Source: Saccharothrix sp. ALI-22-I | GTDB taxonomy: Bacteria > Actinomycetota > Actinomycetes > Mycobacteriales > Pseudonocardiaceae | Direction: 5' to 3' | NCBI RefSeq assembly: GCF_001984175.1 | Contig: NZ_MTQP01000065.1 | Span: 1 to 64,000, forward strand | DNA: 64,000 nt | In this document: piece after piece, positions 1,721 through 57,465 of the stretch | Layout of the letters: the number at the start of each line of letters is the position of its first letter | Numbering within the stretch: position 1 is the stretch's first letter | Notes under the pieces: generated by a model | Seen by the model: the letters and a program-made list of their open reading frames with translations, nothing else | Database searches by the model: none | What the model was told of the DNA's origin: nothing | Made by a program: the position numbers and the translations under genes

Positions 1721-1734
1721 CCACCGCGCCGGGG

Positions 1735-2183: not shown

Positions 2184-2266
2184 CAAAACCTCATGTGTCC
2201 GGGTCGATCGTATGGATCACCGGCGCGGGTCGCGCCGGGTTCGCCTACGACGAGAGGGAGTGGGTT

Positions 2267-39602: not shown

Positions 39603-39698
39603 CCTCGATGAACGTTGACGGACCCGACGAACTCGACGATTGCGGATGAGCTCTTGAACGCCTGCCGTACGGTGGCCGGCGGCGGAGGGAGGTTTCGC

Positions 39699-42469: not shown

Positions 42470-45400
42470 CGGTGACCGAACTGCCGCACACCGCCGTCGT
42501 TCCCGACGCGGAAGCCGTGCCCAGGTGGGTGCCCGAACGCGCCGGAATCCTCAACGTCTGGCGTTACTACGACGAGGTGTTCACGTTCCACAAAGGACGG
42601 TTGCTGCTGCGCGGGCCCAACGGCACCGGCAAGTCCAAGGCGCTGGAACTGCTGTTGCCGTTCCTGTTCGACGCCAACCTCCGCGCCAACCGGTTGTCCA
42701 CTTTCGGCACGTCCGAGCGCACCATGCACTGGAACCTGATGGGAGAGGGCGCGTCCGGCGTCACCAGGGTGGGGTACGTGTGGCTGGAGTTCCGCTTCAC
42801 CGACGGCGCGTCGGAGCGGTGGTTCACCTGCGGCGCACGGCTCGCCGCGACCAAGCACACCAGCGCCGTGCACCCGGACTACTTCACCACCGGACAACGC
42901 GTCGACGAGCCGGGTGGGCTGTTGCTCAAGGCCGACGGCCACCCGCTCACCAAGAAGGCGTTGGAGAGCGCGCTGGGCGAGCACGGCGTGCTGCACCAGA
43001 GCGCTGCCGACTACCGGGCGGCGGTGCGTTCGACCCTGTTCCCCGGCTTGAGCGAGCAGCGCTACGACGCGCTGATCACCGCGCTGCTCCAGCTCCGCAC
43101 GCCGAAGCTCTCCCAGCGGCTCGATCCCGCGTTGTTGTCGACCTTGTTGTCGAAGGCGCTGCCGCCACTGGGCGAAGCGGAGATCGGCGAGCTGGCGGAG
43201 GGCTTCGAACGCCTGGACCGGCAGCGTGAACAGCTCAAACGGCTGGACGACGAGGTCGAGGCCGCACGGGACCTCAGAGCGAAGCAGCGCGCCTACGCCC
43301 AGCGGGTGCTGCGCGCCGCGTCTGCCGGGCTCATCTCGGCGACCACCGAGATGAGCAGGCTGGCCGACGCCGCCAAGCAGTCGGAGGAAGAACACCGGGA
43401 CGCGGCGCGTCGCAAGGACGAGGCCGTGCGGCGTGGTGAGGCGCTGGACGACCGGATCGCCGACACCGAAGGCCGGATCGAAGGACTGGTCGACAGCGAG
43501 GCGTACCGGCGGGGCCAGGAACTCGACCGGCTGCGGACGCAGGCCAGGGAAGCGTCCGCGACGGCGCGATCCCGGCGTGCGGACGCCACGCGTCTCCGGG
43601 AAGTGGCGGAAGCGGATGAGGAGGAGGCCGCCTCGGCCGCCGGCATCGTGGAGTCCCGGTCGGCCGCGGTGCGTTCGATGGCCGACGAGGTCGTGGCCGC
43701 CGCCACCCGGGTCGGTCTCGGCGCCGTGCCCGCCGAGATCGGCAACGACCCCGCCGACACGTCCCGATCCCGGATGCTGCTGCGCGCGGCGGTGCAGGCC
43801 CGAACCGAGCAGGTGACGTCCGTTCGCGCGGCCTTGGACGAGCACGACCGCGCGGTGAGCGGCCGACAGCAGGCGGAAACGGCGCTGGAAGAGGCCAGGG
43901 AGGACCTGTCGGAGGCCACCGCGCACCGCGTCGAGGCCGCCGAACACCGGGACACCGCGCTCGCGGAACTGACCGACGCCGTCCGTGACTGGGCGGCCGG
44001 GTGCCGTGAACTCGTGTTCCCCGATCCCGACGCCGTGGCCGACCTGGTGGCGTCGGAGGCGGCCGTGCTGGCGGAGGTCGACGCCGCTGCGGGCCGGGTG
44101 CTGCACGTGATCACGAGGGACGAGACGCTGGCCGAGTCGGCGGTGCGCGAGGCCGAGCGGGAGAAGGCGGCGATCGCGGCCGAGATCGCGCGCCTCTCCG
44201 GCGTCGAGGATCTGCCGCCGGACCCGCCCCCGACCCGCACCGCCGACCGCGCCACCCTGACCGGCGCGCCGCTGTGGCGGCTGGTCCGTTTCGCCGACGC
44301 CGTGCCCGACCACGTCCGGGCCTCGGTGGAAGCCGCGCTCCAAGCCTCCGGGTTGTTGGACGCCTGGGTCGGGCACGACGGGGCGGTCGAGGGACACGAC
44401 ACGTTCGCCGTTCCCGACGCGGCGCCCGCGGCTCCCGGTGGTTCGCTCGCCGACATCCTCGTTCCGGAAACCGACGCGGCGGTGCCCGCGGACGTCGTGA
44501 TCCGCCTGCTGGCCGGTATCGCCTACGGCGAGCGCCTGCCCGACGGCCACCCGGCGGCGATCGGCGCCGACGGCGGGTGGCGACTGGCGAACGTGCGCGG
44601 CACCTGGCACAAGGACGAGGCCGCGCACATCGGCGCCCTGGCCAGGCGCAACGCCCGGCAGCGACGGCTGGCGGAGCTGCGGGAGCGGATCACGGCGCTG
44701 GACGCGGTGATCGAGGAGCACACGGCCGTGTTGCGGTCGCTGGCCTCCCGGCGGGCGGCGCTCGAAGCCGAGCGGGCCGGCCGGCCCGGCCACGCGCGGG
44801 CCGACGAGGCGGCACTGGAGCTGACCCGGGCGGAATCGGCGGTGTCCTCGGCGGACGGCGTGGTGCGGCGCTCGCTGGACGCGTTGGCCGGGAAGGAGCA
44901 GGAGGTGAACCGGGCACTGCGCGGGCTGACCGCCGTGGCGGCCGAGCACGGCCTGCCCGCGGACCGGGCGGCGCTCACCGCCGTCGATGCCGCCGTGGCG
45001 GGTTTCCGGGCGCAAGCCGACGCGTGGATCGACGGACACGCGGTCCTGCTGTCCGCGCGGGACACGGCCGCCCGGCTCGCCGCGCAGGCCGGCCGATCCC
45101 GGTCCATCGCCGAGCAGCGGGAGTCGGAGGCGGGCGAGGCCGAAACCCGGGCGCTCCGGCTCGGCGGCGCGCTGGAAGCGGTCGAGGGGACCATCGGCGT
45201 CGACTACCGGCAGGTGCTGGACGAACTCGCCGACCTGCGCGACCTGCTCGTGGAGCTCAAGCGGCAGGCGAACGCCAACCGCGGGGAGGCCAACGGGCTG
45301 GCGGAGCGCCTGGGTGAGCTCAACAGCCGGCGGGTGACCGACGCGCAGGCGCGCGACCGTGCCGCCGAGGCACGGGACCTGGCCGCGGAACGCTTCCGGC

Positions 45401-46527
45401 ACCTGGCCCGGGGCAGCTTTCCCGCCGACGGCGATATCGCCGACCTGCCGTCGTTCGCCCAGGTCCGCGGCGCGTCGAGCGGTGTCCGGGCGGTCCTCGA
45501 CGCCGCGCGGGCCGTCGCCGCGACGTGGCCGACGTTGCCGCACTCCCCGAAGAACCTCGGCGACGCGGCGCACCGGTTGGCCGAGTCGGTGCACGCCTGT
45601 CGTGCCGTGCTCAGCGGTCGGGCGGATCTCGACCTGGACTCCGACGAGGACGTCCAGGTCTTCTCCGCGATGGTGGACGGGGTCCGGGTGGGCGCCGCCG
45701 CGCTGTTCGACCTGCTGCGGCGGGAAGCGGACCAGAGCCGTCAGGACATCACCGGCCAGGAGCGGGAGCTGTTCGACAAGACCCTGACCGGCGACACCCG
45801 TCGCCACCTCGCCGCGCGGATTCGGCAGGCGCACGAGCTGGTCGACGGCATGAACGCCCGCCTCGAACGCGTGCGCACCGCGTCCAAAGTGGCGGTTCGG
45901 CTGGTCTGGGAGGTCTCACCCGACCTGCCGCCGGGCACCAAGGCCGCCCGCGACCTCCTGCTGAAGGACCCGGTGCGGCTGACCGACGCGGACCGGGAGT
46001 CGCTGCACCGGTTCTTCCGGGACCGCATCGAGCAGGCGAAGGCCGACGACACCGCGGTCGGCTGGGAACAGCAGCTCGGCCAGGTCTTCGACTACACGGG
46101 GTGGCACCGCTTCGTGGTGAAGGTCGACCGGGCCAACGGTTCCGGCTGGCAGCCGCTGACCAGGAAGCTGCACGGCGCGCTGTCGGGTGGTGAGAAGGCG
46201 ATCGCCCTGCACCTGCCGCTGTTCGCCGCCGTGGCGGCCCACTACCAGGCGGTGTCCGAGGCGCCGCGGATCATCCTGCTGGACGAGGTGTTCGTCGGCG
46301 TCGACAGCGCCAACCGCGGCCAGGTGTTCGAGCTGTTGTCGGCCCTGGACCTGGATCTCGTTCTCACCTCCGACCACGAGTGGTGCACCTATCGCGAGTT
46401 GGACGGCATCGCCATCCACCAGTTGATCACCGGTGGCGACGGCGACGACGCGGTCACCACCGCCCGATTCGTGTGGGACGGCGCCGACCTGGTCACCGGG
46501 GAAGCACGTGGTGATTCCGGGTCGTGA
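42466..46527 (+). CDS. jetC: Wadjet JetC, TIGR02680 family SMC-like ATPase
   Basis: The protein has 1353 residues, typical for type II JetC. Walker A is GPNGTGKS (residues 50-57), the Q-loop region RTMHWNLMGEGASG, the signature LSGGEKA (1239-1245), and Walker B RIILLDEVFVGVD (about 1268-1280). Two long coiled-coil stretches (about 260-560 and 730-1080) enclose a hinge-like segment (about 590-720) starting LWRLVRFADAVPDHVRASVE. It extrudes DNA loops and senses small circular DNA. A short AT-richer tract without genes follows the stop (46528-46711). Confidence 0.92.
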   Translation: MTVTELPHTAVVPDAEAVPRWVPERAGILNVWRYYDEVFTFHKGRLLLRGPNGTGKSKALELLLPFLFDANLRANRLSTFGTSERTMHWNLMGEGASGVTRVGYVWLEFRFTDGASERWFTCGARLAATKHTSAVHPDYFTTGQRVDEPGGLLLKADGHPLTKKALESALGEHGVLHQSAADYRAAVRSTLFPGLSEQRYDALITALLQLRTPKLSQRLDPALLSTLLSKALPPLGEAEIGELAEGFERLDRQREQLKRLDDEVEAARDLRAKQRAYAQRVLRAASAGLISATTEMSRLADAAKQSEEEHRDAARRKDEAVRRGEALDDRIADTEGRIEGLVDSEAYRRGQELDRLRTQAREASATARSRRADATRLREVAEADEEEAASAAGIVESRSAAVRSMADEVVAAATRVGLGAVPAEIGNDPADTSRSRMLLRAAVQARTEQVTSVRAALDEHDRAVSGRQQAETALEEAREDLSEATAHRVEAAEHRDTALAELTDAVRDWAAGCRELVFPDPDAVADLVASEAAVLAEVDAAAGRVLHVITRDETLAESAVREAEREKAAIAAEIARLSGVEDLPPDPPPTRTADRATLTGAPLWRLVRFADAVPDHVRASVEAALQASGLLDAWVGHDGAVEGHDTFAVPDAAPAAPGGSLADILVPETDAAVPADVVIRLLAGIAYGERLPDGHPAAIGADGGWRLANVRGTWHKDEAAHIGALARRNARQRRLAELRERITALDAVIEEHTAVLRSLASRRAALEAERAGRPGHARADEAALELTRAESAVSSADGVVRRSLDALAGKEQEVNRALRGLTAVAAEHGLPADRAALTAVDAAVAGFRAQADAWIDGHAVLLSARDTAARLAAQAGRSRSIAEQRESEAGEAETRALRLGGALEAVEGTIGVDYRQVLDELADLRDLLVELKRQANANRGEANGLAERLGELNSRRVTDAQARDRAAEARDLAAERFRHLARGSFPADGDIADLPSFAQVRGASSGVRAVLDAARAVAATWPTLPHSPKNLGDAAHRLAESVHACRAVLSGRADLDLDSDEDVQVFSAMVDGVRVGAAALFDLLRREADQSRQDITGQERELFDKTLTGDTRRHLAARIRQAHELVDGMNARLERVRTASKVAVRLVWEVSPDLPPGTKAARDLLLKDPVRLTDADRESLHRFFRDRIEQAKADDTAVGWEQQLGQVFDYTGWHRFVVKVDRANGSGWQPLTRKLHGALSGGEKAIALHLPLFAAVAAHYQAVSEAPRIILLDEVFVGVDSANRGQVFELLSALDLDLVLTSDHEWCTYRELDGIAIHQLITGGDGDDAVTTARFVWDGADLVTGEARGDSGS

Positions 46528-46711: not shown

Positions 46712-47359
46712 TCACCGGTCCGCTGCGGTGGGGTAGTCGGCCGAGAACACGTCCACCTGCGGCAGGTCGTGACCCAGCCGGTCCCGTTTCGCGGTGAGGT
46801 AGCCGATGTTGTGCTGGTTCGGGCGCATCAGGTGCGGCACGCGGGCCGCCACCTCGATGCCGCGGCTCTCCAGCGCCTCGATCTTGTCCGGGTTGTTGGA
46901 CATCAACCGCACGGACAGCACGCGCAGGTGCTTCAGGATGCGTGCGGCGGGGGTGTAGTCCCGGACGTCGACCGGCAGACCCAGGGTGGTCGCGGAGTCG
47001 AGCGTGTCCATGCCCTGCTCGTCCTGGAGCACGTGCGTGCGCACCTTGGCCACCAGGCCGATCCCGCGTCCCTCATGGCCTCGCAGGTAGATCAGGATGC
47101 CGGCGCCCTCGGCGACGATCCGGTCCAGTGCGGCGTCGAGCTGGTCGCCGCACTCGCAGCGCATCGCACCGAAGATGTCACCGGTCATGCACTCCGAGTG
47201 CACGCGCACCAGCACGTTCTCGCGCATTCTGGTCCGGCCGTAGACGAGGGCCATGTGTTCGTGCCCGTCCGCCCGGAACGCCACCGCGCGGAACGTGCCG
47301 CGGCGCGTGACCAGGTCGGACTCCGCCACGTCCTGGTCGTTGAAGGCTTCCTCGTGCAT
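46712..47359 (-). CDS. ribA: Divergent GTP cyclohydrolase II (possible FAPy-producing type)
   Basis: The protein has 215 residues, the length of a stand-alone GCH II. Zinc ligands Cys57, Cys68 and Cys70 lie in HSECMTGDIFGAMRCECGDQ, the phosphate/GTP loop in RGHEGRGIGL, and the nucleophilic Arg in VDVRDY (Arg133). Compared with the E. coli enzyme, the two tyrosines in RAYALQDQGYDT are replaced here by His109 and Met117, with one inserted residue. In Streptomyces coelicolor SCO6655, as I recall, a Tyr-to-Met switch makes the enzyme stop at the formyl-pyrimidine FAPy. No riboflavin genes are nearby. It is divergent from a PTPS homologue, as part of a pterin-like gene cluster. Confidence 0.85.
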   Translation of the reverse strand: MHEEAFNDQDVAESDLVTRRGTFRAVAFRADGHEHMALVYGRTRMRENVLVRVHSECMTGDIFGAMRCECGDQLDAALDRIVAEGAGILIYLRGHEGRGIGLVAKVRTHVLQDEQGMDTLDSATTLGLPVDVRDYTPAARILKHLRVLSVRLMSNNPDKIEALESRGIEVAARVPHLMRPNQHNIGYLTAKRDRLGHDLPQVDVFSADYPTAADR

Positions 47360-47449
47360 CCGGCTCCCTCGTCCACCCGACACCGGTCCAACGTTCACTA
47401 CGCTCGACCGGAACTTGCACCGTAGCTCGCTCACTCGGCGGAGGTCACC

Positions 47450-47848
47450 CTGTTCAGCATCACCGTTCGTGATCACGTGATGATCGCCCACAGCTTCCGC
47501 GGCGAGGTCTTCGGTCCGGCACAGCGCCTGCACGGAGCAACGTTCGTAGTGGACGCGAGGTTCAAACGGGCCGATCTCGACTCGGACAACATCGTCGTCG
47601 ACATCGGACTGGCGACCGAGCAACTGCGCTCGGTCCTGGGCGAACTCAACTACCGCAACCTCGACGACGTGCCCGCGTTCGCCGGGATCAACACGTCGAC
47701 CGAGTTCCTGGCCAAACACATCGCCGACCAACTCGCGGACCTGGTCCACGCGGGTGCGCTCGGCGAAGGCGCCCGCGGCCTGGCGGCCATCGAGGTCAGC
47801 CTGCACGAGTCGCACGTCGCCTGGGCGAGCTACGAACGCCCGCTGTGA
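47450..47848 (+). CDS. 6-pyruvoyl-tetrahydropterin synthase homologue lacking catalytic and zinc residues
   Basis: The protein has 132 residues and is a single T-fold domain. The start appears to be CTG: CGGAGG (47438-47443) is six bases upstream, and the resulting N-terminus [20 protein letters not shown] is what the family requires. The GTG at 47477 would cut the first strand. The zinc/catalytic motif CxxxHGH of PTPS/QueD is AQRLHGA here: the Cys position is Ala24 and the second His is Ala30. The pterin-anchoring Glu region is kept ([13 protein letters not shown]). It resembles SCO6650 of S. coelicolor, reported to lack zinc and the catalytic triad. Its end overlaps the glycosyltransferase start (GTGA). 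Confidence 0.8.
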
Positions 47849-48870
47849 CGCTCCACTTCGTCCTGCCCGGCGACGTGGACGACCCCACGTCGCCGAGCGG
47901 CGGCAACGTCTACGACCGCCGCGTCATCCAGAGCCTGGCCAAGCTGGGCACGGCAGTGCGCGAGATCACCATCCCCGGCACCTGGCCGCAGCCCTCGCAC
48001 ACCGCCCGTGCGCGGCTGGACCAGGCACTGGCCGGCATCGAGGACGGCGCGGTCGTGCTCCTGGACGGCCTGGTGGCGTGCGGCGTGCCTGAGGTGGTCG
48101 TGCCGCACGCCGGTCGGCTGCGCCTGGTGGTCCTGGTGCACCTGCCGTTGGCCGACGAGACGGGCCTGCCACCCTCGGTTGCCGCACGCCTGGACGCCGC
48201 CGAACGCGAGTGCCTGCACGCCGCCGGCGCCGTCGTGGCCACCAGCCCGTGGGCGGCACGACGACTAGCCGGCCACCACGGCCTGGCCCGAGTCCACGCC
48301 ATCACCCCCGGCACCGACCCCGCGCCGCCGGCCACCGGCACCGACGGCGTGTCCCGGCTGCTCTGCGTCGCCTCGCTGACTCCGCGCAAGGGCCACGACG
48401 TGCTGGTGGAAGCCCTGGCCACCGTCACCGACGTCCCGTGGACCTGCGCGTTCGTCGGTCCTGAGCGATCCGGCGGTCCAGTCCGTGACCTGATCGCCCA
48501 ACACGGGCTAGCCGACCGGATCGACCTGATCGGCCCACTCACCGGCAAGCCACTGGACCGCGCGTACGCGACCGCCGACCTGTTCGTGCTGCCATCCCGC
48601 GCCGAGACCTACGGCATGGTCGTCACCGAGGCACTGGCCCGCGGCGTGCCGGTGATAGCGAGTTCCGTACCCGACGCACTCGGTAACGGCGGCCTGCTCC
48701 TCCCACCCGACGACGTGACCGCGTTCGCGCAGGCCCTGCGCCGGTGGTTCACCGACGAGGACTGGCGCCGTGACCTGCGCAGCCGTGCTCTGACCCGCCG
48801 CACTGAGCTGTCCACATGGGACGAAACGGCGGCCGAACTGGTGAGGGTGCCGGCTAGTCTGCGGGCATGA
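47845..48870 (+). CDS. Glycosyltransferase family 4
   Basis: The protein has 341 residues with a GT-B fold. The N-terminal glycine-rich acceptor motif is [20 protein letters not shown]. The C-terminal donor domain contains [20 protein letters not shown] and the EX7E motif in [20 protein letters not shown]. There is no signal peptide. It sits between the PTPS homologue and a methyltransferase in an operon with overlapping ends. It probably transfers a sugar to the pathway intermediate. Donor and acceptor cannot be told from sequence. Confidence 0.9.
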
Positions 48871-49661
48871 GCGACTTCGCCCCGGAATGGCTGGCACTGC
48901 GTGAGAAGGCCGATGCGGACGCCCGCGCGGTGGATCTGGTCGAGCGGCTGCGCAAGATCGATCTGAACCGGACACCCCTCGTGGTGCGTGATCTCGGGTG
49001 TGGAACGGGATCGTTGGGACGATGGCTCACCGGGCGGTTGGACGGTCCGCAGCACTGGGTGCTGCAGGACCGCGACCCCCGTCTGCTCGGCATCGCGGCG
49101 GCGGGCATGACGGGCGTCACCGTGGAGACGCGGGAGGGCGACCTGACCGCGCTCACTGCCGCTGACCTGGCCGGCACGTCACTCGTCACGGCGTCGGCTC
49201 TGCTCGACTTGCTGACGGCTGACGAGGTCGAGGGGCTGGCTGAGGCGTGCGTCGGCGCGGGGTGTCCGGCGCTGCTCACGCTGTCCGTGGCGGGGCGGGT
49301 CGAGTTCGACCCCGCCGAACCGTTGAACGCGGAGCCTGCCGACGCCGAGTTCGAGGCCGCGTTCAACGCCCACCAACGGCGGGAAGTGGCAGGTCGTCGG
49401 CTGCTCGGGCCGGACGCCGCCGAGGCTGCGGTCAAGGCCTTCGAACGCCGGGGCGCGGAGGTGACGACGAGCCCCAGCCCGTGGCGGCTGGGGCCGGACC
49501 AGGCCGCGCTGGCAGGGGAGTGGCTGCGCGGCTGGGTGGCCGCGGCGGTCGAGCAGGAGCCCCGCCTCGCCGCCGAAGCCCCCGCCTACCTGCGACGCAA
49601 GCTCGACAACGGTCCGCGCGTGGTCGTGCACCACACCGATCTGCTGGCGGTGCCTCGGTGA
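48867..49661 (+). CDS. Class I SAM-dependent methyltransferase
   Basis: The protein has 264 residues. Motif I is VVRDLGCGTGSLGRWLTGRL, the acidic motif II VLQDRDPRLLG, and motif III/IV region GTSLVTASALLDLLTADEVE, all in a Rossmann methyltransferase fold. An additional C-terminal 70 residues (GPDQAALAGEWLRGWVAAAV) are helical. It overlaps both neighbours (ATGA, GTGA), so it is strictly co-expressed with the glycosyltransferase and the membrane protein. The target atom is unknown. Confidence 0.88.
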   Translation: MSDFAPEWLALREKADADARAVDLVERLRKIDLNRTPLVVRDLGCGTGSLGRWLTGRLDGPQHWVLQDRDPRLLGIAAAGMTGVTVETREGDLTALTAADLAGTSLVTASALLDLLTADEVEGLAEACVGAGCPALLTLSVAGRVEFDPAEPLNAEPADAEFEAAFNAHQRREVAGRRLLGPDAAEAAVKAFERRGAEVTTSPSPWRLGPDQAALAGEWLRGWVAAAVEQEPRLAAEAPAYLRRKLDNGPRVVVHHTDLLAVPR

Positions 49662-50608
49662 AGCGGCTCTGGCCTTGGCTGCGGTTGCTCGGCGCGATCG
49701 GCATCCTGGTGGCGCTGGGGTGGCGGTTGGGTGCGGATGCGTTTGTGGACGGACTCCGTGCGGTCAATGTGTGGTCGGTTGTCGCGGCGCTTGGTATTGG
49801 GCTGTTGACCACGGTGCTCAGTGCGTGGCGGTGGTGTGTCATTGCTCGTCGCCTTGGGCTGCCGCTCACCCTTGGGACGGCCGTGTCGGACTACTACCGG
49901 GGGCTGTTGCTCAACGCGGTGCTGCCCGCCGGCGTGCTGGGTGACGTGCACCGGGCGGTGAGTCACGGGCGGCAGGCCGGTGATGTGGGGCGCGGTGTGC
50001 GGGCGGTGGTGTTCGAGCGGGCTGCGGGGCAGGTGGTGCTCATCGGGCTTGGTGTCGCGGTGCTGTTCAGCCAGTCTGTGCCGGTTGAGCTGCCTGGTCG
50101 GGGTGTCCTGGTGACGGGGCTGGTCGTGCTTGCAATAGCGGGCGTGGTCGCGGGGCGGTCCACCAAGGTGCGTCGGATGCTCGGGACGACGTGGGCGGAC
50201 GCTCGAACGGGTCTGGTGAACCGCGAGGTGCTGCCGAAGGTCGTGCTGCTGTCGGCGGCGACGTTGGCCGGGCACGTGGCGCTGTTCGTCGTCGCGGCCA
50301 GGGTCGCCGGCTCGGAGGCTTCGATCGGACGGCTCGTCCCGCTGATCGTGCTCGCGTTGCTGGTGATGGCCGTGCCGGTGAACGTCGGTGGCTTCGGGCC
50401 GCGTGAAGCGTTCCTGGCGGTGGCGTTCGGCGCGGCGGGTCTGGGTGCGGCCCAAGGGTTGACGACCGGGGTCGTTTACGGGGTGCTGGCGATGATCAGC
50501 AGCCTGCCCGGTGTCCTCACGCTGTTCCGCCGCACCTCAGAACACCGCGAGGTACTGACCGAACGACTCGACCAGCGCCGCGAGCAGGTCCCGGCCCTTG
50601 TCGGCTGA
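49658..50608 (+). CDS. LPG-synthetase/flippase-like membrane protein (UPF0104 family)
   Basis: The protein has 316 residues and about eight helices. The UPF0104/lysylphosphatidylglycerol synthase TM-region signature is seen as DYYRGLLLNAVLPAGVLGDV, then HRAVSHGR, and VPVNVGGFGPREAFLAVAFG. Proteins of this fold move or modify lipid-linked molecules across the membrane. In this operon it may flip a glycolipid-like product. The GTG start overlaps the methyltransferase stop. Its last 72 bases overlap the 3' end of the convergent creatininase gene. Confidence 0.85.
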   Translation: MKRLWPWLRLLGAIGILVALGWRLGADAFVDGLRAVNVWSVVAALGIGLLTTVLSAWRWCVIARRLGLPLTLGTAVSDYYRGLLLNAVLPAGVLGDVHRAVSHGRQAGDVGRGVRAVVFERAAGQVVLIGLGVAVLFSQSVPVELPGRGVLVTGLVVLAIAGVVAGRSTKVRRMLGTTWADARTGLVNREVLPKVVLLSAATLAGHVALFVVAARVAGSEASIGRLVPLIVLALLVMAVPVNVGGFGPREAFLAVAFGAAGLGAAQGLTTGVVYGVLAMISSLPGVLTLFRRTSEHREVLTERLDQRREQVPALVG

Positions 50609-51220
50609 CGCCAGCGAAGGACGGCCGATCACCCCGGACGACGTGTACGGCGCGAGGCCCAACGTGAGCATGTGCGGCCGGTCGTCGGCCAGGTGGTCGC
50701 TCGTCTCGTAACCGTATTTCAGCAGCTCAGGGTGGGCGTGCAGGAGGATGGAGGTCTCCAGTTCGCCCGCGTGCATATCGCTGCGGGACGAGGTCTTAAG
50801 GCCGGCGGCAGCGCGCGCCACGGCCCAGTCGCCGCTGGCGGGGAACAACGCCATCCCCTCGGACTCCTGCACGATGTTCGACAGCACGTAGTTCCCGCCG
50901 TGCCCGTTGACCAGCACCAAGTGCGGCACGCCGGACCGGCGCAACGAGTCCGCGACGTCCCGCACCACCGAGTACAGCGTCCGCGCCGAGATGCTCACCG
51001 TGCCCGGCCAGTCGGCGTGCTCGTGCGAGCACGAGATCGTGATCGGCGGCAGCAGCTGCACGGGGTGCGCGTCGGCGATCGCCCGCGCGATCGTGCAGGC
51101 GATGACCGTGTCCGTCGCCAACGGCAGGTACGGGCCGTGCTGCTCGTGGCTGCCGACGGGCAGCACGGCCACGGTCGCCGCACGCGCCCGCACGTCCTCG
51201 GTGGTGTCAGGCAGGTACAT
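50537..51220 (-). CDS. Creatininase-family amidohydrolase (possible ArfB-like formamide hydrolase)
   Basis: The protein has 227 residues. The metal site is intact: LPVGSHEQHGPYLPLATDT (Glu26, His28, Asp37), NGHGGN, and HAGELETS. The family includes creatininase, MftE peptidases and archaeal ArfB, which deformylates FAPy in riboflavin and F420 synthesis. With a FAPy-type cyclohydrolase and a RibD-type reductase in the same cluster, an ArfB role is the most economical reading; this is inference. ATG 51220 lies inside the end of the dehydrogenase gene (14-base overlap), so the two are coupled. Confidence 0.85.
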   Translation of the reverse strand: MYLPDTTEDVRARAATVAVLPVGSHEQHGPYLPLATDTVIACTIARAIADAHPVQLLPPITISCSHEHADWPGTVSISARTLYSVVRDVADSLRRSGVPHLVLVNGHGGNYVLSNIVQESEGMALFPASGDWAVARAAAGLKTSSRSDMHAGELETSILLHAHPELLKYGYETSDHLADDRPHMLTLGLAPYTSSGVIGRPSLASADKGRDLLAALVESFGQYLAVF

Positions 51221-52184
51221 GCCCGGGACCGTAACCAATCCGGTGGCACAGGGCCGGGAGTTCGCCACTGGCCAACCTCGGCAGCACGTCCGGCAGGTCG
51301 TCGAACCGGCTCTCACCGGTGATCAGCGCGTCGAACGCGGGATCGGCGAGCAGATCCAGAGCAAGGGACATCCGCTCGGCGTACGTCCGGTCCGGCCGCG
51401 CGACCACGCCCACCTGACTGCTGCGCAGACGCAGCCTGCGGGAGTGGAAGAACTCGCCCAGCGGCACGCTGACCCGGCGGTCGCCGTACCAACTCAGCTC
51501 GACCACCTGCCCCTCCGGCGCGAGCAGCGCCAACGACCGCTCCAGCCCCGCGTCGGTCGCACTCGCGTGCACGACGAGATCACAGTTACCCTCAGCCTCC
51601 TCGGGCAATGCGAAGGCCACGCCCAACGCGGCGGCCACCGACGCACGGCCGGGGTCGGCGTCGACCAGTTGCAGCCGCACGCCGGGGAACCGGGCGAGCA
51701 CGGCGGCCACACTGCACCCGACCATCCCGCCGCCGACCACCGCGATCCGGTCACCGATCAACGGTTTCGCGTCCCACACCGCGTTCACCGCCGTCTCCAC
51801 CGTCCCCGCCAGCACCGCGCGCGCGGCGGGCACCGCGTCCGGCACGGGCGTCACCGCGTCGGCCGACACCACGTAGTGCGTCTGATGTGGATAGAGGCAG
51901 AACACCGTGCGGCCCAGGAGCGGACCCTGTTCCACCACACCGACGTTGAGGTAGCCGTACTTGACCGGCCACGGGAAGTCACCCTCCTGGAACGGTGCCC
52001 GCATCACGTCGTGCTGGTTCTCCGGCACACCACCGCGCAGCACCAGCGTTTCCGTACCCCGGCTGATGCCCGAGTACAAGGTGCGCACGAGGACTTCACC
52101 CGGCCCGGGCTCGGGCAGGACGACCGATCGGATCTCACTTTTTCCCGATGAGGTGAACCAGAGGGCCCTCGCCTTGCGTGTCAT
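51207..52184 (-). CDS. MDR-family dehydrogenase without the usual catalytic zinc Cys (BchC-like)
   Basis: The protein has 325 residues. The GroES-like N-terminal domain has SGISRGTETLV where zinc alcohol dehydrogenases carry the catalytic Cys (CGVCGTD type). This is the pattern of the BchC-like branch. The Rossmann domain has IAVVGGGMVGCSVAAVLARF (GxGxxG) and LVDADPGRASVAAALG, with Asp favouring NAD. The structural zinc lobe is absent. It is the first gene of a two-gene unit with the creatininase homologue and is divergent from the CDP-alcohol phosphotransferase gene. It probably oxidises or reduces a sugar or side-chain alcohol of the product. Confidence 0.85.
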   Translation of the reverse strand: MTRKARALWFTSSGKSEIRSVVLPEPGPGEVLVRTLYSGISRGTETLVLRGGVPENQHDVMRAPFQEGDFPWPVKYGYLNVGVVEQGPLLGRTVFCLYPHQTHYVVSADAVTPVPDAVPAARAVLAGTVETAVNAVWDAKPLIGDRIAVVGGGMVGCSVAAVLARFPGVRLQLVDADPGRASVAAALGVAFALPEEAEGNCDLVVHASATDAGLERSLALLAPEGQVVELSWYGDRRVSVPLGEFFHSRRLRLRSSQVGVVARPDRTYAERMSLALDLLADPAFDALITGESRFDDLPDVLPRLASGELPALCHRIGYGPGHVPA

Positions 52185-52231
52185 CTATAACAAACCTCCG
52201 ATAGCCGGGGCCCACCGCCACGAGGGGCACG

Positions 52232-53140
52232 ATGATCACACTTCAGCACAGCACGGCGCCGGCCGTGCGCAGGGTCGCGCTGACCCGCACCCGCGAGGTC
52301 GCGTCGGTCGTTCGTGCCTCGTTTTCCGGCGATCACGCTCTTCGATCGTCGGAAAACGAGGCACGAGCGGTCGACTTCCAGGTGACCGAGCCCGCGACGC
52401 CGGAGGCGGCGCAATCCAACACAGCGCAATTCAACACAGAACCTGTCGCGTGGGCAGGCGTCCAAGTGCTCCTGCTCGCCGTGCTGGAGGCCACGGTCGG
52501 ACTCGGCGTGCTGGGCTGGCTCGTGGGCATCGCCTACGCAGTCGCCACCCAGGCGTTGCTGAGCGGTGCCGTGCAGCGGTCCGCGCGCGGCGTGCTCGGG
52601 CCTGCCGACCGCGTCACGCTCGCCAGGGGGCTCCTGGTCGGCGGCGTAACGGCGCTGGTGGCGGACGGTGCGCTGGTGGCCGGCGGGACCAGTGAGACAG
52701 CGGTCCTCGTCGTGTTCGCCGGCGTTGCGCTCGCACTGGACTTCGTGGACGGCCAGGTCGCACGTCGCACGGGCACGTCTTCGGCCATGGGTGCGCGGTT
52801 CGACATGGAGGTCGACGCGTTCCTGATCCTGGTGCTGAGCGTGCACGTCGCCCTGTCGTTCGGGCCGTGGGTGCTGGTGATGGGTGCCCTGAGGTACGCG
52901 TTCGTCGCGGCTTCCTGGGGTTTGGGCTGGTTGCGGAGTGCTCTGCCGGCGAGCTACGCGCGCAAGGTGGTGGCTGCCGTGCAGGGGATCGTGCTCGTCG
53001 TCGCCGCGTCCGGGCTGGTGCCGTACGCCGGTGTCCTGGTAGGACTGGCGCTGGCCTCGCTCATCTGGTCGTTCGGCCGTGACATCGCGTGGCTGTGGCG
53101 CAACGCTTCAGCGTCGGTGAAGGGAGTCAGCCATGCCTGA
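52232..53140 (+). CDS. CDP-alcohol phosphatidyltransferase-family membrane protein
   Basis: The protein has 302 residues. The complete active-site signature DGxxARx8Gx3Dx3D is present from DGQVARR to GARFDMEVD, in a bundle of about six to eight helices (AGVQVLLLAVLEATVGLGVL; IVLVVAASGLVPYAGVLVGL). The enzyme moves a phospho-alcohol from CDP to an acceptor at the membrane. The first 70 residues are hydrophilic, not conserved in type, and contain a palindromic insertion and a small tandem repeat. GAGGGG precedes the ATG. It overlaps the DoxX gene by eight bases. Confidence 0.9.
   Translation: MITLQHSTAPAVRRVALTRTREVASVVRASFSGDHALRSSENEARAVDFQVTEPATPEAAQSNTAQFNTEPVAWAGVQVLLLAVLEATVGLGVLGWLVGIAYAVATQALLSGAVQRSARGVLGPADRVTLARGLLVGGVTALVADGALVAGGTSETAVLVVFAGVALALDFVDGQVARRTGTSSAMGARFDMEVDAFLILVLSVHVALSFGPWVLVMGALRYAFVAASWGLGWLRSALPASYARKVVAAVQGIVLVVAASGLVPYAGVLVGLALASLIWSFGRDIAWLWRNASASVKGVSHA
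52312..52366. repeat. 23-bp near-perfect palindrome inside the CDP-alcohol phosphotransferase gene
   Basis: Left arm 52312-52334 and right arm 52344-52366 pair with a single mismatch around a 9-base loop. The outer sequence is TCGTGCCTCGTTTTCC, whose A/T content is unlike the surrounding gene. It is in frame and encodes residues about 28-45. It looks like an inserted palindromic (REP/MITE-like) element or an early intragenic hairpin. No second copy was seen in the window. Confidence 0.75.
52409..52438 (+). repeat. 15-base direct repeat in the same N-terminal region
   Basis: GCGCAATCCAACACA is followed directly by GCGCAATTCAACACA, giving the residues QSNTAQFNT. Together with the palindrome upstream it marks the first 70 codons of this gene as recently rearranged. 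Confidence 0.8.
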
Positions 53141-53543
53141 CGCAACTGTCCAGCCTCGGATGAGCGTCGCGCAGACGGTCGGGAACGTCGTGCTGTGGGC
53201 GTTGCAGGTGCTGCTGGCCGCGTATTTCGTCTACAGCGGGATGTCGCTGCTCGGTGACGGCTTCGTGGGCAAGTTCGACAAGATCGGCTTCGGGCAGTGG
53301 CTGCGGTACGTCACCGGTGTGCTGGAGATCGCGGGCGCGCTCGGCCTGCTCGTACCGCGCCTGTGCGGGCTCGCTGCGTTGGGCCTGGTAGGCGTGATGG
53401 CGGGAGCGGTCGCCACGGAGCTGTTCATCCTGGGCGACACGGACGGCGCGGTGCTGCCCGCGACCCTGCTCGCATTGGCCGCCGTGGTGGCGTGGTTCCG
53501 CCGCGACACCGTCCGGGCGTTGCTTCAGTCCTTCGGGAAGTAG
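53133..53543 (+). CDS. DoxX-family membrane protein
   Basis: The protein has 136 residues and four helices (NVVLWALQVLLAAYFVYSGM; LRYVTGVLEIAGALGLLVPR; ALGLVGVMAGAVATELFILG; TLLALAAVVAWFRR) in the DoxX/DoxD-like fold. The family includes thiosulfate:quinone oxidoreductase subunits and redox-stress proteins, but most members are uncharacterised. Its start overlaps the CDP-alcohol phosphotransferase stop. Its last 19 bases overlap the convergent RibD-type gene. Confidence 0.85.
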   Translation: MPDATVQPRMSVAQTVGNVVLWALQVLLAAYFVYSGMSLLGDGFVGKFDKIGFGQWLRYVTGVLEIAGALGLLVPRLCGLAALGLVGVMAGAVATELFILGDTDGAVLPATLLALAAVVAWFRRDTVRALLQSFGK

Positions 53544-54196
53544 CGCAGCACGGCGACGTCACCCAGTTTGGTGACGTCCTCCAGGTGGAAGCGCCGGGCC
53601 GGGCCGCCCGGGAACTCGGCCGGGTTGACGAACCGCGGCGCGTTGGCCTGGCCGATCAGCATCGGGGCGACGGCCATCCGGACCTCGTCGGCCAGCCCCG
53701 CGGACAGGAACGCGGTGTGGATCGTGCCGCCGCCCTCCACCATGAGCCGGTCCACGCCACGCTCACCGAGGTCGTCCAGCAGCACGCCGAAGTCGATGGC
53801 CGGGCCGAGGGACACCACGTCCGCCAGGTCCCCGACCGCCGCTTGAGCACGTGGTCGGCCGGAATCCGTGGTGTAGACGAGCTTGTCGCCGCCGTGGTGC
53901 CAGAACTTGAGCGACGGGTCCAGATCACCGCTGCCGGTCACGGTGACCTTCAACGGGTACTCGGAACGTCCCTTTGCGACCCGCGCGGCACGTCGTTCGG
54001 CGCTGTTGACCAGCAGTCGAGGGTTGTCCCGGCGGATCGTCGCGGCGCCGACCAGGATCGCCCCGGACTCCGCGCGCACCCGGTCGACGTGGTCGAAGTC
54101 CTCGGCGTTGGACAGCGGGAACCGCTCCGCACCCCGGTCGTCGATGTAACCGTCCACACTGACCGCGACACTGAGCAGGACATACGGGCGATTCAC
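53525..54196 (-). CDS. RibD C-terminal (dihydrofolate-reductase-fold) reductase
   Basis: The protein has 223 residues and is a stand-alone RibD_C domain without a deaminase domain. It shows VLLSVAVSVDGYIDDRGAER, HVDRVRAESGAILVGAATIR then RDNPRL, and the NADPH-site motif VDRLMVEGGGTIHTAF. The closest functional precedent is the archaeal or fungal 2,5-diamino-6-ribosylaminopyrimidinone phosphate reductase (ArfC/Rib7), which reduces the ribose of the ring-opened GTP product. In a cluster with a GTP cyclohydrolase II and a creatininase homologue, this role is plausible. The GTG start is divergent from the sulfatase-like gene. Confidence 0.88.
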   Translation of the reverse strand: MNRPYVLLSVAVSVDGYIDDRGAERFPLSNAEDFDHVDRVRAESGAILVGAATIRRDNPRLLVNSAERRAARVAKGRSEYPLKVTVTGSGDLDPSLKFWHHGGDKLVYTTDSGRPRAQAAVGDLADVVSLGPAIDFGVLLDDLGERGVDRLMVEGGGTIHTAFLSAGLADEVRMAVAPMLIGQANAPRFVNPAEFPGGPARRFHLEDVTKLGDVAVLRYFPKD

Positions 54197-54280
54197 GCGT
54201 CTACCGTACCCACCCCTGAACCACCGGCAGGTGTGCGCGCGTTCTACTCATAGGGGTTGGCACGAATCGCGGAGGACGGC

Positions 54281-55912
54281 ATGGCCGAGGGTGTTGTGGA
54301 TCATCGCGTCCGTCGGGTCGTGGCGATCGTCCTGACCGTCCTGGCCGCCCTGTTCGTGTCGTTCGCGCTGGTCGTCCCCAGGGACTACGACCGGTTCGCG
54401 CTCGTCGAGTTCCTGCGCATCCCGGTGGAAGGGCTGCTCGCCGTGGTGCTGGTGCTCGTGCTGCCCGAACGCGCGCGACGCGTCGTCGCGCTGGTCGGCG
54501 GGCTCGGGCTCGGGGTGCTGCTCGTGGTGAAGGTGCTGGACATCGGCTTCGAGGAGGTGCTCGACCGGCCGTTCGACCTGGTGCTCGACTGGCCGTTGCT
54601 GACGCCCGCGATCGACTACGTGGACGTGACCTCGGGGCGGTTCGCGGCGATCGCGGTGGTGGTGTCGGCGGTGTTGCTGGCGGTCGTGGTGGTGTTCCTG
54701 ATGACACGGTCCGCGCTGCGGCTGACCGGAGTGGTGGGTCGTCACCGGCCCGTGGTCACGCGTGTGGTCGCGGTGCTCGCGGTCGTGTGGATCTCGGTCG
54801 CCGCGCCGGGGCTGGAGGTCGCGCCGGGTGTGCCGATCGCGTCGCACAGCACGGCGGAGTTCGTCTACGACCACGCCCGTCAGGTGCGGGCCGGTCTGCG
54901 TGACAAGGAGCAGTTCGCGGCGGAGGCGGCCGTGGACGCGTTCCGCGACACCCCGGCCGACCAGATGCTGACCGCTTTGCGCGGCAAGGACGTCGTCCTG
55001 GCGTTCGTGGAGAGCTACGGGCGTTCAGCGGTGGAGCACCCCGAGATGGGTCCGAAAGTGGGCGCGATGCTCGACGAGGGCACGCGGCGGCTGGCCGAGG
55101 CCGGGTACGGCTCGCGCAGCGCGTTCCTCACCTCGCCGACGGCGGGCGGCGGCAGTTGGCTCGCCCAGGCCACCCTGCTGTCCGGCCTGTGGATCGACAA
55201 CCAGCAGCGCTACCGCACCCTGCTGGCCAGCGACCGGTTGACGCTGGGCGGCGCGTTCCGGCACGCGGGCTGGCGTTCGGTGGGCGTCATGCCGGGCATC
55301 GTCAAGACCTGGCCGGAGGGCGAGTTCTTCGACTACAACCGGATCTACGCGTTCGACGACCTCGGCTACCGGGGGCCCCGGTTCGGCTACACGACCATGC
55401 CCGACCAGTACACGATGTCGATGTTCCAGCGCAAAGAGCGCGATGCCGAACACGATCCGGTGATGGCGGCGATCCCGCTGCTGTCCAGCCACGCGCCGTG
55501 GTCGCCCCAGGCGTCGACGATCGAGTGGGACGAGGTCGGTGACGGCTCGGTGTACAACTCGATGCAGTCGGGCGAGGCCCCGATGGAGGACATCTTCGGC
55601 CGTGACCCCTCGGTGGTGCGGGCCGACTACGCGCGGTCCGTCGAGTACTCGGTGAACACGCTCGTGTCCTACGTCGAGAACTACGGCGACGACGACCTCG
55701 TGCTGGTGTTCCTGGGTGACCACCAGCCCGCCCAGTTCGTGACGGGCGCGGACGCGAGCCGGGACGTGCCGATCACGATCGTGACCCGTGACAAGGCCGT
55801 GCTGGACCGGACCGCTGACTGGGGCTGGAACGACGGCCTCAAGCCCGGTCCGCAGGCCCCAGTCAGCCCGATGAACGCGTTCCGTGACCAGTTTCTGACG
55901 ACGTTCCGCTAA
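54281..55912 (+). CDS. LTA-synthase/sulfatase-family membrane protein
   Basis: The protein has 543 residues. Four N-terminal helices (AIVLTVLAALFVSFALVVPR; FAAIAVVVSAVLLAVVVVFL) are followed by an extracytoplasmic alkaline-phosphatase-superfamily domain: VVLAFVESYGRSAVEHPEMG, a Thr/Ser nucleophile region near SPTAGGGSWLAQ, and the metal-binding end LVLVFLGDHQPAQFV. Relatives include lipoteichoic acid synthases and phosphoethanolamine or phosphoglycerol transferases. ATG 54281 is chosen for its GGAGGA; a TTG 24 bases upstream is weaker. As the last gene beside the pterin-like cluster it may modify a lipid-linked product, but it could be independent. Confidence 0.8.
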   Translation: MAEGVVDHRVRRVVAIVLTVLAALFVSFALVVPRDYDRFALVEFLRIPVEGLLAVVLVLVLPERARRVVALVGGLGLGVLLVVKVLDIGFEEVLDRPFDLVLDWPLLTPAIDYVDVTSGRFAAIAVVVSAVLLAVVVVFLMTRSALRLTGVVGRHRPVVTRVVAVLAVVWISVAAPGLEVAPGVPIASHSTAEFVYDHARQVRAGLRDKEQFAAEAAVDAFRDTPADQMLTALRGKDVVLAFVESYGRSAVEHPEMGPKVGAMLDEGTRRLAEAGYGSRSAFLTSPTAGGGSWLAQATLLSGLWIDNQQRYRTLLASDRLTLGGAFRHAGWRSVGVMPGIVKTWPEGEFFDYNRIYAFDDLGYRGPRFGYTTMPDQYTMSMFQRKERDAEHDPVMAAIPLLSSHAPWSPQASTIEWDEVGDGSVYNSMQSGEAPMEDIFGRDPSVVRADYARSVEYSVNTLVSYVENYGDDDLVLVFLGDHQPAQFVTGADASRDVPITIVTRDKAVLDRTADWGWNDGLKPGPQAPVSPMNAFRDQFLTTFR

Positions 55913-56001
55913 TGTCGGAATTTCCCGGGGGCCAGTCACCCATCCGCCACGAATGCACTACGGTCGGTGGCTGCAGACAGATCCACTTTCGGGGGAGCTC
56001 T

Positions 56002-57465
56002 ATGAGGTTTTTCCGACGTAGGCTGCTGACCGCCACCGCTCTGGTCGGAGCGACGACGCTGGTCAGCGCCATGACGACGGTGTCGACGGCGAGCGCCGGC
56101 GACGATGTGAGCGCTCGCCTCGCCGAGTCGCTGCGGCAGGCCGTGGTCGCGCAGGACTTCAAGGACGTCATCGACCTGACGCCGCCGGAGCAGATGACGG
56201 CGTCGTCCGGGGAGGGCACGTCCCGGGCGGGCACGTCCCGCGCCGGCGCGCCGGAGAAGTACGACTCGGTGCCCGCCGAGGAGATGGCCGCCGAGCTGTC
56301 GGCCTCGTCGAGCGCCGCCGCCGGCCGGCCGATCCACCAGATGCCGAACATGGACCTCGCGGTGATCGAGCTGGACAGCTACGGCCGGCCGATCGCGATG
56401 GCCGACGTGCTGCTCAGCCCGCAGTACCCGAACGGCGTCGTGGTGCCGCTGAACAAGCGGAAGCTGTCCACCGACCAGGTGCGCTACCGGTGGTGGGACG
56501 ACACCGAGTGGGACGTCAACGGCGGCCAGGGCACCGTTGACGTGCTCGCCGGCCGGGAGAAGGCGCCCATCGACTTCTCCTCGCCGTACCCGGCCTCGGT
56601 GCTGAAGCTGATGGTGGGCTTCGGCGTGCTGCGGCTGGCCGACGCGGGTCGGGTGAACCTCGACGCCGTCTACGACTACCAGCCGGTGACGATCAACCCG
56701 GCGTGCGGCGGCGCGTCCAGCAAGGTGATCCGGCAGCACTTCGACGAGATGATCACCAAGTCGCAGAACGAGTCGACCTGCGCGCTGATCAAGATGATCC
56801 ACGACCTGGGCGCGTGGAACGAGGTCAACCAGATGTTCGTGGACCTCGGCATGCCGACGCTGATGGTGACCGGGACCAACCCGGGCAACGGCGGCCGGTG
56901 GATCGGGTCGAACATGAGCAGCATCGACACCGCGAAGCTGCTCCTGCTGGTCAACGGCGGCTACGGCACGCTGTGGACGACCGACGCGGGCAAGTCGGTC
57001 ACCCGCAACGAGCTGAGCGCGTCGTCGCGTCGCCAGTTCCTGAAGTCGCTGGGCGACCAGGGCCACAACGAGATGCTGTCCACCACCAACCACTGCGGGC
57101 GCGACTACCCGGTCCAGGGCATCCCGCAGGTCACGCCGTCGCGCTGGGTCAAGGCCGACGGCACGATGACCGTCGGTGCGGCCGTGTACGACAGCGACGT
57201 GCGCCCGTGCGACGCCGTCGCCGAGGTGACCTTCGGTCACAAGACCGGCTGGGTCGACACGACCGGTAGTGACGCGGGCATCGTGAAGTCGTTGCCGGGC
57301 AAGAAGAAGCGCAACTACATCGTGGTCGCGTTCTCCAACCTGGGCACCGACTACGTCGACACCTACCGCCCCGCCGACCGGCCCGGCGTCTTCCCGGTGC
57401 TGTACACCGAGAAGTACGCCAAGCTGGGTGCGGCCGTGGACCGGATCGTCACTTCGCTGCGCTGA
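56002..57465 (+). CDS. Secreted class A beta-lactamase-fold serine hydrolase
   Basis: The protein has 487 residues. The signal peptide is at about 1-32 (RRLLTATALVGATTLVSAM). The hydrolase domain shows SxxK as PASVLKLMVG (Ser199, Lys202), an SxN-type triad as KSQNES (Ser254), and KTG as FGHKTGWV (Lys414). A 160-residue N-terminal extension precedes the domain. The spacing between motifs is longer than in true class A enzymes, so this is more likely a PBP-like carboxypeptidase or esterase than a resistance lactamase. GGGGGAGC precedes the ATG. It is followed by a strong terminator with a T-rich tail. Confidence 0.82.
   Translation: MRFFRRRLLTATALVGATTLVSAMTTVSTASAGDDVSARLAESLRQAVVAQDFKDVIDLTPPEQMTASSGEGTSRAGTSRAGAPEKYDSVPAEEMAAELSASSSAAAGRPIHQMPNMDLAVIELDSYGRPIAMADVLLSPQYPNGVVVPLNKRKLSTDQVRYRWWDDTEWDVNGGQGTVDVLAGREKAPIDFSSPYPASVLKLMVGFGVLRLADAGRVNLDAVYDYQPVTINPACGGASSKVIRQHFDEMITKSQNESTCALIKMIHDLGAWNEVNQMFVDLGMPTLMVTGTNPGNGGRWIGSNMSSIDTAKLLLLVNGGYGTLWTTDAGKSVTRNELSASSRRQFLKSLGDQGHNEMLSTTNHCGRDYPVQGIPQVTPSRWVKADGTMTVGAAVYDSDVRPCDAVAEVTFGHKTGWVDTTGSDAGIVKSLPGKKKRNYIVVAFSNLGTDYVDTYRPADRPGVFPVLYTEKYAKLGAAVDRIVTSLR

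Follow-up and report, generated by a model that had tools for sequence, protein, structure and literature searches.

In the archaeal Arf route, ring opening of GTP to FAPy by ArfA, a GTP cyclohydrolase (GCH) III, is followed by the action of a separate deformylase and a separate RibD_C reductase, and the deformylase, ArfB, belongs to the creatininase family. In Streptomyces coelicolor, the GCH II protein SCO6655 was reportedly found by Spoonamore in 2006 to form FAPy through loss of a tyrosine, and we take the residue at the position corresponding to Tyr105 of the E. coli enzyme to be Met. To our knowledge, SCO6655 and the PTPS homologue SCO6650 have so far remained orphans (2006 and 2008), and no description of the SCO6650–SCO6655 locus as a pathway was found in the titles and abstract openings of the open-access literature searched.

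These systems are compared here with a locus of Saccharothrix sp. ALI-22-I that lies within the window, the whole stretch of 64,000 nucleotides analysed. By its description, BrbF of Sinorhizobium and Brucella is likewise a bacterial creatininase-family FAPy formamidase but, unlike our reading of the cluster, it acts in riboflavin synthesis, and the sections of the report drawn on here state that its FAPy source was not yet found (PMC9478397). The pepteridine cluster likewise encodes a secondary pathway and includes a PTPS homologue, although it starts with GCH I and employs NRPS-like acylation, and the sections of its description drawn on here mention neither a GCH II nor a creatininase or glycosyltransferase (PMC5384830).

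Genes of the Saccharothrix locus

All ten families named for positions 46712–54196 in an initial annotation are present, as judged by Pfam and, for the dehydrogenase, by a weak match to the NCBIfam BchC model. The GCH II gene, of SCO6655 type (46712–47359, reverse strand; GTP_cyclohydro2, E 4.5e-59), is predicted to convert GTP to FAPy (AFRPP). On the forward strand lie genes for the PTPS (T-fold) homologue (47477–47848; PTPS, 4.9e-21), a GT4-family glycosyltransferase (47845–48870; Glyco_trans_1_4, 5e-28), a SAM-dependent methyltransferase (MT; 48867–49661; Methyltransf_25, 3.3e-7) and a flippase-like membrane protein of the LPG_synthase_TM or UPF0104 type (49658–50608; LPG_synthase_TM, 3e-30). 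The GT4 gene overlaps both the PTPS and MT genes by 4 bases, and the region from PTPS to the flippase-like gene (47477–50608) is apparently a single transcription unit.

A creatininase-family amidohydrolase, the predicted FAPy deformylase, is encoded on the reverse strand (50537–51220; Creatininase, 7e-62) and carries the motifs EQHG, NGHGGN and DMHAGExETS. A CDP-alcohol phosphotransferase gene of uncertain start (52232–53140, forward; CDP-OH_P_transf, 8e-12) has the motif DGx2ARx8Gx3Dx3D in its translation and is followed, on the same strand, by a gene for a lineage-specific DoxX-like membrane protein (53133–53543; DoxX_2, 5e-17). The RibD_C reductase (53525–54196, reverse; RibD_C, 6e-39) has no deaminase domain and is predicted to convert DARoPP (2,5-diamino-6-ribosylamino-pyrimidinone 5'-phosphate) to a ribityl product. 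Beyond these ten genes lies that of a sulfatase-family membrane protein, perhaps a phosphoalcohol transferase, for which the Pfam match is just under the cut-off (54257–55912, forward).

The remaining gene (51207–52184, reverse) encodes a BchC-like MDR dehydrogenase (DH) which lacks the usual zinc ligands in the alignment and is a candidate polyol or secondary-alcohol dehydrogenase. Its Pfam match is weak (ADH_zinc_N, 8e-4) and BchC, the best NCBIfam model, lies far under its cut-off (9.9e-12). Foldseek matched its AlphaFold model (pLDDT 89) to many MDR proteins, threonine, butanediol, sorbitol, xylitol and idonate dehydrogenases among them, with 14–20% identity in the 50 matches listed, a spread that singles out no one substrate.

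Kinship with SCO6650–SCO6655, which the initial annotation had pointed to, is borne out by the PTPS homologue, for which SCO6650 (3D7J), its orthologue, was the sole PDB match (E 1.1e-59). It is also consistent with the order DH-PTPS-GT4-MT-flippase-creatininase-GCH II in Streptomyces loci which, as judged from Streptomyces loci other than that of S. coelicolor, fits the SCO6650 to SCO6655 numbering. The window differs in having RibD_C and DoxX as well, in the location of its DH gene beside that of the creatininase, and in the His of its GCH II where Met is seen in the Streptomyces loci.

The window PTPS, which is 64–90% identical to 21 other cluster PTPSs, shares with PTPS and QueD the family PF01242 and the invariant Glu111 (17/17 aligned), presumably the pterin-anchoring residue. 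It had been described as having an inactive site, and this holds: its motif, FGPA..LHGAT, lacks the catalytic Cys. Ala occupies the QueD catalytic Cys position in all 17 aligned sequences, and the GPA motif occurs in 177 of 178 loci; we assume Cys to be the wild-type QueD residue there, the aligned QueD entry 4ntk carrying Ala. The His of the Asp-His pair is replaced by Tyr in 16 of the 17, including the window, and is kept in L132. One of the three zinc His residues is lost in actinomycete cluster PTPSs; among the 178 loci, the motif is HGA in 166, including the window, and HGH in 11 (177 read).

Conservation of the gene set

The loci surveyed comprised 80 that were the best of 514 found by PTPS, together with 98 further loci, and a set of 144 stretches was formed from loci with at least 8 kb on both sides, including most of the 80. 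The models used were built on the 80-locus set and L114–L133. PTPS counts are high by construction, since the loci were found by PTPS; a PTPS relative occurs in at least 514 stretches and, in the best 80, most of the other cluster genes accompany it.

Genes for DH, PTPS, GT4, MT, the flippase-like protein, the CDP-alcohol transferase and GCH II recur in both the 80 loci and the 144 stretches, in varying order and strand. DH was present in 143 of the 144 stretches, GT4 in 142, the flippase-like protein in 137, the CDP-alcohol phosphotransferase in 129, GCH II in 123, RibD_C in 89 and the sulfatase-family gene in 73. Moreover, within the host's family, the cluster DH was found in 29 of 30 PTPS-positive genomes and in none of 30 PTPS-negative genomes, and in one genome DH and PTPS lie about 129 kb apart and both are still retained. 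Because gene content is kept despite changes of order and strand, the association exceeds chance and the cluster is a real conserved unit; the co-occurrence across actinomycetes that had been set in advance as a check was thus found in the 80 loci, the 144 stretches and the 30 versus 30 genomes. Many actinomycetes share the gene set, S. coelicolor probably included. DoxX, previously counted as part of the pathway, is sporadic (18/80 loci, 25/144 stretches) and probably a passenger. At least 12 of the 80 loci have an inositol-monophosphatase-type gene, one member of which was checked with Pfam, next to GCH II or creatininase; it is a candidate for a pathway phosphatase.

A second class of loci carries the core RibD_C-DH-PTPS-GT4 in 11 of 11 cases, with FolB adjacent in all 11 genomes. 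A methyltransferase is present in at least five of these loci, fused to GT4 in three; the Actinomycete MT model had no match in any of the seven full f20 loci, so that the two methyltransferases are only possible orthologues.

Creatininase and the Tyr105 position of GCH II

The description of the window GCH II as divergent proved apt: His replaces E. coli Tyr105 in the alignment, while C57, C68, C70, D131, R133 and K159, which we take to be the zinc and catalytic residues, are intact and invariant in 15 aligned GCH IIs. With creatininase scored as present above 250 bits, it occurred in 76 of 78 loci with a non-Tyr GCH II and in none of 58 with a Tyr GCH II. Loci fetched after this rule was stated, a subset of these, gave 26/26 and 0/36, respectively. 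This exchange of creatininase and Tyr is a new observation. The residues found in place of Tyr vary (H, M, Q or L), as if that GCH II step were no longer needed. Loci with creatininase extend over 13 named genera and 13 further genus groups, with possible overlap, and show no clear loss of one partner; the one later locus (L143) that has creatininase without a local GCH II carries a His-type GCH II elsewhere in the genome.

In the GCH II tree the Tyr trait changes twice, or once without the degenerate L082, and in the core tree the Tyr and creatininase traits change twice each, with only two independent pairs. On these trees a claim of many independent switches was rejected; Tyr was lost about once and the association, although exact, is therefore nearly a single event. 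Fisher values, which take no account of kinship, do not count as proof here. Since the presence of creatininase tracks the Tyr-less GCH II, both activities foreseen in the initial annotation gain support from the 76/78 versus 0/58 pattern: the window GCH II probably makes FAPy, and the creatininase homologue probably deformylates it.

A cluster-type creatininase was also observed in a lanthipeptide-like neighbourhood of one genome (G517) in which the GCH IIs are all of Tyr type, and this counts against the main reading.

A proposed pathway and its alternatives

We consider it reasonably probable that the genes encode a dedicated pathway, widespread in Actinomycetes, that leads from GTP to a glycosylated, methylated 2-amino-4-oxopyrimidine or pterin in seven steps. 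The Tyr-less GCH II would open GTP and stop at FAPy, as SCO6655 reportedly does and as its residue here suggests, and the creatininase homologue would remove the formyl group to yield DARoPP; in Micromonosporaceae-type loci one Tyr GCH II would stand in for both steps. RibD_C may then turn the ribosyl into a ribityl chain, with no deamination, DH may oxidise one side-chain hydroxyl, and the Cys-less PTPS may bind the 2-amino-4-oxo ring via Glu111 and act on ring or side chain. Subsequently, GT4 would glycosylate the compound and MT would methylate it; in Actinomycetes, export or attachment to a lipid or envelope polymer may fall to the flippase-like protein and the CDP-alcohol transferase, often together with the sulfatase-like protein. 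Comparative evidence supports the first two steps, while steps three to seven and the product are inferred from family and context. The Arf-like entry would be only a precursor supply, since one ordinary Tyr GCH II can replace it. Moreover, RibD_C is missing from many loci, and its reduction step may therefore not be general; of the 17 later creatininase-type genomes without a cluster RibD_C, 16 were searched, and every one of these has RibD_C matches at other sites, most of them in frames that could hold an ordinary RibD.

The earlier view of the locus as an analogue of the Arf route stands with a qualification: the logic is shared, but the locus is not a member of that route. The window employs a GCH II (PF00925) rather than a GCH III, its creatininase scores 38.7 bits with the ArfB model NF033501 (cut-off 180), its RibD_C scores 135.4 bits with the archaeal DARoPP reductase model ArfC, TIGR01508, which is its best NCBIfam model (cut-off 186.45), and its genes lie with GT4, MT and PTPS rather than with riboflavin genes.

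The product may instead be a ribityl-pyrimidine or a flavin-like 8-ribityl-pterin glycoconjugate, with the chain retained on the ring nitrogen and DH acting at a different hydroxyl or at the sugar. RibD_C leaves the chain as ribityl and a zinc-less MDR may act on sugar, but the T-fold PTPS and the FolB neighbour point to dihydroneopterin-like substrates, and we regard this as possible but doubtful. Rather unlikely, in our estimation, is a route that reaches the dihydroneopterin skeleton without GCH I, in which DARoPP from GCH II and creatininase would be reduced by RibD_C to a ribitylamine and oxidised by DH to a C2' ketone, these redox steps together equalling the Amadori rearrangement of GCH I, leaving the Cys-less protein of PTPS fold to close or shape the pterin ring; the product would be glycosylated, methylated and extracellular, in Streptomyces mainly in the aerial phase. 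GCH I was detected in all 16 genomes tested, and a second pterin source, such as the dedicated pathway would be, is therefore not obviously needed; folate rescue for a missing GCH I was rejected on the same count.

The creatininase could also be an MftE-like peptidase, or act on another pathway amide, its link to the Tyr-less GCH II reflecting common descent only. MftE is its best NCBIfam model (137 bits, cut-off 172, against only 38.7 bits for ArfB), a RiPP-like locus also harbours a close homologue, and the loss of Tyr about once fits; yet neither partner is clearly lost among the creatininase loci, creatininase is absent wherever a Tyr GCH II lies with the core, and BrbF provides a bacterial precedent for FAPy deformylation (PMC9478397, in the sections drawn on), rendering this improbable. 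Still less credible is a spare or regulated supply of riboflavin or F420 precursors, with GCH II, creatininase and RibD_C feeding the flavin pathway beside unrelated neighbours. These are riboflavin-type steps, and BrbF serves riboflavin, but the window genome already has one RibBA-type and one further Tyr GCH II elsewhere, and GCH II is absent from more of the 144 stretches than DH or GT4. A riboflavin operon was rejected for the window: no lumazine or riboflavin synthase occurs among the genes scanned (46712–57465), and the window has no match to any Rfam family, the FMN riboswitch included. Furthermore, SCO6655 expression opposes the predicted riboflavin flux in S. coelicolor (r −0.61; Table 2 of PMC2853524, as excerpted).

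For the favoured dedicated pathway, the wide spread of the gene set suggests a product useful to many actinomycetes, and the exchange of creatininase and Tyr makes two of the steps sharply and cheaply assayable, so that genes hitherto orphan become part of a pathway open to test. By gene order SCO6652 would be the cluster methyltransferase. In the tables drawn on, SCO6652 belongs to the most strongly raised genes of the second mycelium (log2 4.3 at 48 h and 4.1 at 72 h; Table 3 of PMC3610822) and SCO6655 is listed with genes mostly rising in stationary phase (PMC2853524), a hint that the cluster functions late or during development.

Gene content, distribution and co-retention of the cluster

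The ten families that the initial annotation placed in one stretch of alternating units were all found at 46712–54196, and the coordinates give units on alternating strands over 46712–55912: GTP cyclohydrolase II (GCH II) (−); the PTPS homologue, GT4, SAM-dependent methyltransferase and LPG_synthase_TM/UPF0104 flippase-like protein (+), with 4-base overlaps; the overlapping genes of an MDR dehydrogenase and a creatininase homologue (−); CDP-alcohol transferase and DoxX (+); RibD_C (−); and a sulfatase-like protein (54257–55912, +). The GCH II was rightly called divergent, in that His occupies the position of E. coli Tyr105, where the two other GCH IIs of the genome carry Tyr. Among PDB sequences the PTPS homologue matches, at E ≤ 0.001, only 3D7J ('Uncharacterized protein SCO6650'); SCO6650 and SCO6655 were reportedly the subject of work by Spoonamore (2006/2008).

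Directly adjoining the cluster, at 38379–46527, lies a Wadjet type II-like locus encoding JetA2, JetB2, JetC2 and a DUF3323/DUF2399 protein which we take to be JetD-like. A Beta-lactamase2-family protein with a signal-peptide-like stretch, judged by eye, follows immediately after the sulfatase-like gene (55912–57465), and positions 1–4000 show the highest G+C content (0.773) among the sixteen 4-kb blocks of the window.

A contig scan matched at least 595 stretches, at least 514 of them encoding a PTPS relative, and the best 80 of the 514, spanning 18 genera, were retained as a named set. In these best 80, tblastn detected GT4 in 80, the dehydrogenase in 78, methyltransferase and flippase each in 76, CDP-alcohol transferase in 75, GCH II in 73, creatininase in 49, RibD_C in 47 (weak matches counted), sulfatase in 40 and DoxX in 18. 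A further 98 stretches were drawn from matches in three genome sets: the window's family (60 genomes, 30 matches, 23 added and the remaining 7 taken, from contig data, to coincide with the window or with loci of the named set), the phylum (396 genomes, 31 matches, window included) and a Micromonosporaceae-type family (81 genomes, 51 with matches, three left out and one excluded from counts). With the window, and less one duplicate, this gave 178 loci, of which 151 extend at least 8 kb either side of PTPS, 144 of them outside f20, a group of another class. Among these 144, PTPS is present throughout by construction, followed by the dehydrogenase (143), GT4 (142), flippase (137), CDP-alcohol transferase (129), methyltransferase (126), GCH II (123), RibD_C (89), sulfatase (73), creatininase (72) and DoxX (25), while gene order and strand differ from lineage to lineage. 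Conserved co-occurrence across actinomycetes is borne out for the dehydrogenase, PTPS, GT4, methyltransferase, flippase, CDP-alcohol transferase and GCH II; DoxX is sporadic and probably a passenger. RibD_C is missing at many Streptomyces and Amycolatopsis loci; among the later creatininase-type genomes 17 lack it at the locus, and the 16 of these that were searched all gave RibD_C matches elsewhere. Other Streptomyces loci carry a different RibD_C between flippase and creatininase.

Comparing genome-wide presence allowed the linkage of dehydrogenase and PTPS to be tested independently of neighbourhood. Of the 60 genomes of the window's family, 30 have PTPS; 29 of them also carry the cluster dehydrogenase (E ≤ 1e-60), which occurs in none of the 30 PTPS-negative genomes. 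The one PTPS-positive genome that lacks it (G028) has a completeness of 86%, and its PTPS gene sits close to the end of a contig; in another genome (G013) both genes are retained about 129 kb apart. The pathway is real and widespread, and no description of it was found as far as literature searches reach.

Exchange of the entry module

Creatininase was scored present above 250 bits within the stretch, and reading GCH II by the Tyr105 column agreed with the motif in 136 of 137 rows (duplicate counted), L082 having no motif. In the named set plus window (81 loci), creatininase accompanies 50 of 52 non-Tyr GCH IIs, the exceptions being L036, where the contig stops soon after GT4, and L082, with a degenerate GCH II; it occurs with none of 22 Tyr enzymes and at none of the 7 loci without GCH II. 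The rule was drawn from this set; the 97 later loci were added afterwards, though from related families, and were read with models built on the named loci and L114–L133. There, creatininase is present at 26 of 26 non-Tyr loci, 0 of 36 Tyr loci and one of 35 without GCH II (L143, whose genome encodes a GCH II of His type on a separate contig). Creatininase loci cover 13 genera and 13 genus groups, which may overlap; most Tyr loci belong to Micromonospora or other members of its family, and Pseudonocardia, a MAG and groups f10, f20 and f22 contribute one each.

By sequence, then, the same core is fed either by a module of two enzymes, Tyr-less GCH II plus creatininase, or by one enzyme alone, the Tyr GCH II; this would be expected were creatininase to supply the deformylation lost by the Tyr-less enzyme. 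The association is exact, yet its independent origins are few: on the core tree the Tyr and creatininase traits each change twice, and the GCH II tree shows two changes of Tyr, or one if L082 is removed, and five of the residue overall. A counter-case is G517, where all GCH IIs are Tyr and a cluster-type creatininase homologue (L242, contig C39, 9380–10141, 332 bits) adjoins lanthipeptide-like genes, with LanB-type dehydratase-like and PIMT-like methyltransferase genes nearby (by eye); it was perhaps recruited into a RiPP pathway.

At least 12 of the 80 loci (L044, L048, L055, L058, L062, L063, L066, L068, L074, L075, L083 and L105; Pfam on the L083 member) have an inositol-monophosphatase-type gene next to GCH II or creatininase, and its product is a candidate for 5'-phosphate removal. 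Amycolatopsis loci (L048, L053, L062, L066, L075, L105 and L111) carry a second cluster-type GT4 (373–410 bits) 3' of GCH II/creatininase, at about 15.4–17.2 kb.

The core in group f20

All 11 f20 loci, from eleven genomes, carry RibD_C-DH-PTPS-GT4 (DH, the dehydrogenase). A methyltransferase is present in at least 5 of the 11, five loci having been checked by Pfam; it is 3' of the core in L118 and L128 and GT4-fused in L119, L120 and L126, and the Actinomycete methyltransferase model gave no match at the 7 f20 loci with full flanks. GCH II is in place only at L128; for the other f20 genomes that were searched, every RibBA-like GCH II read carries Tyr. All 11 genomes have a FolB gene no more than about 3 kb from PTPS, in 10 of them the sole FolB, and GCH I was found in all 11. 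The f20 PTPS keeps HGH with Ala in place of Cys, and the top PDB match of the L128 protein is again 3D7J. Because f20 carries the four genes, RibD_C, DH, PTPS and GT4 look like an older core, joined by a methyltransferase in some f20 members at least, and the flippase, CDP-alcohol transferase, sulfatase and Arf-like entry seem to have been added in Actinomycetes. An acyltransferase-family gene (Pfam on the L128 member) adjoins FolB at L128 (12754–13659) and in a like place in nine other loci, clustering in 10 of 11.

Proposed pathway

The gene set, co-retention and entry-module exchange are established at the level of genome comparison, and the exchange across loci supports the entry steps, as the initial annotation had supposed in proposing an Arf-like GCH II and creatininase. 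Thereafter RibD_C would act as reductase; the archaeal DARoPP reductase is its top NCBIfam model and a PDB entry so named is among its matches. No deaminase was found among the window genes at 46712–55912, so the 2-amino group should be retained, in keeping with Glu111, the pterin-anchor residue of the PTPS homologue. The zinc-less MDR dehydrogenase, related in fold to polyol and secondary-alcohol dehydrogenases among others, may provide an oxidation step; on a bold reading, reduction and then oxidation at C2' would be equivalent to the GCH I Amadori step. Glycosylation, methylation and export or anchoring would follow.

BrbF is the bacterial precedent for FAPy deformylation by a creatininase-family enzyme (PMC9478397). 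Expression of SCO6655, annotated to riboflavin, opposes predicted flux (r −0.61); the table with this value, most of whose genes are described as rising in stationary phase, also lists SCO2687, another GCH II, at −0.52 (PMC2853524). SCO6652, by gene order presumably the cluster methyltransferase, has log2 values of 0.8, 4.3 and 4.1 at 24, 48 and 72 h (PMC3610822).
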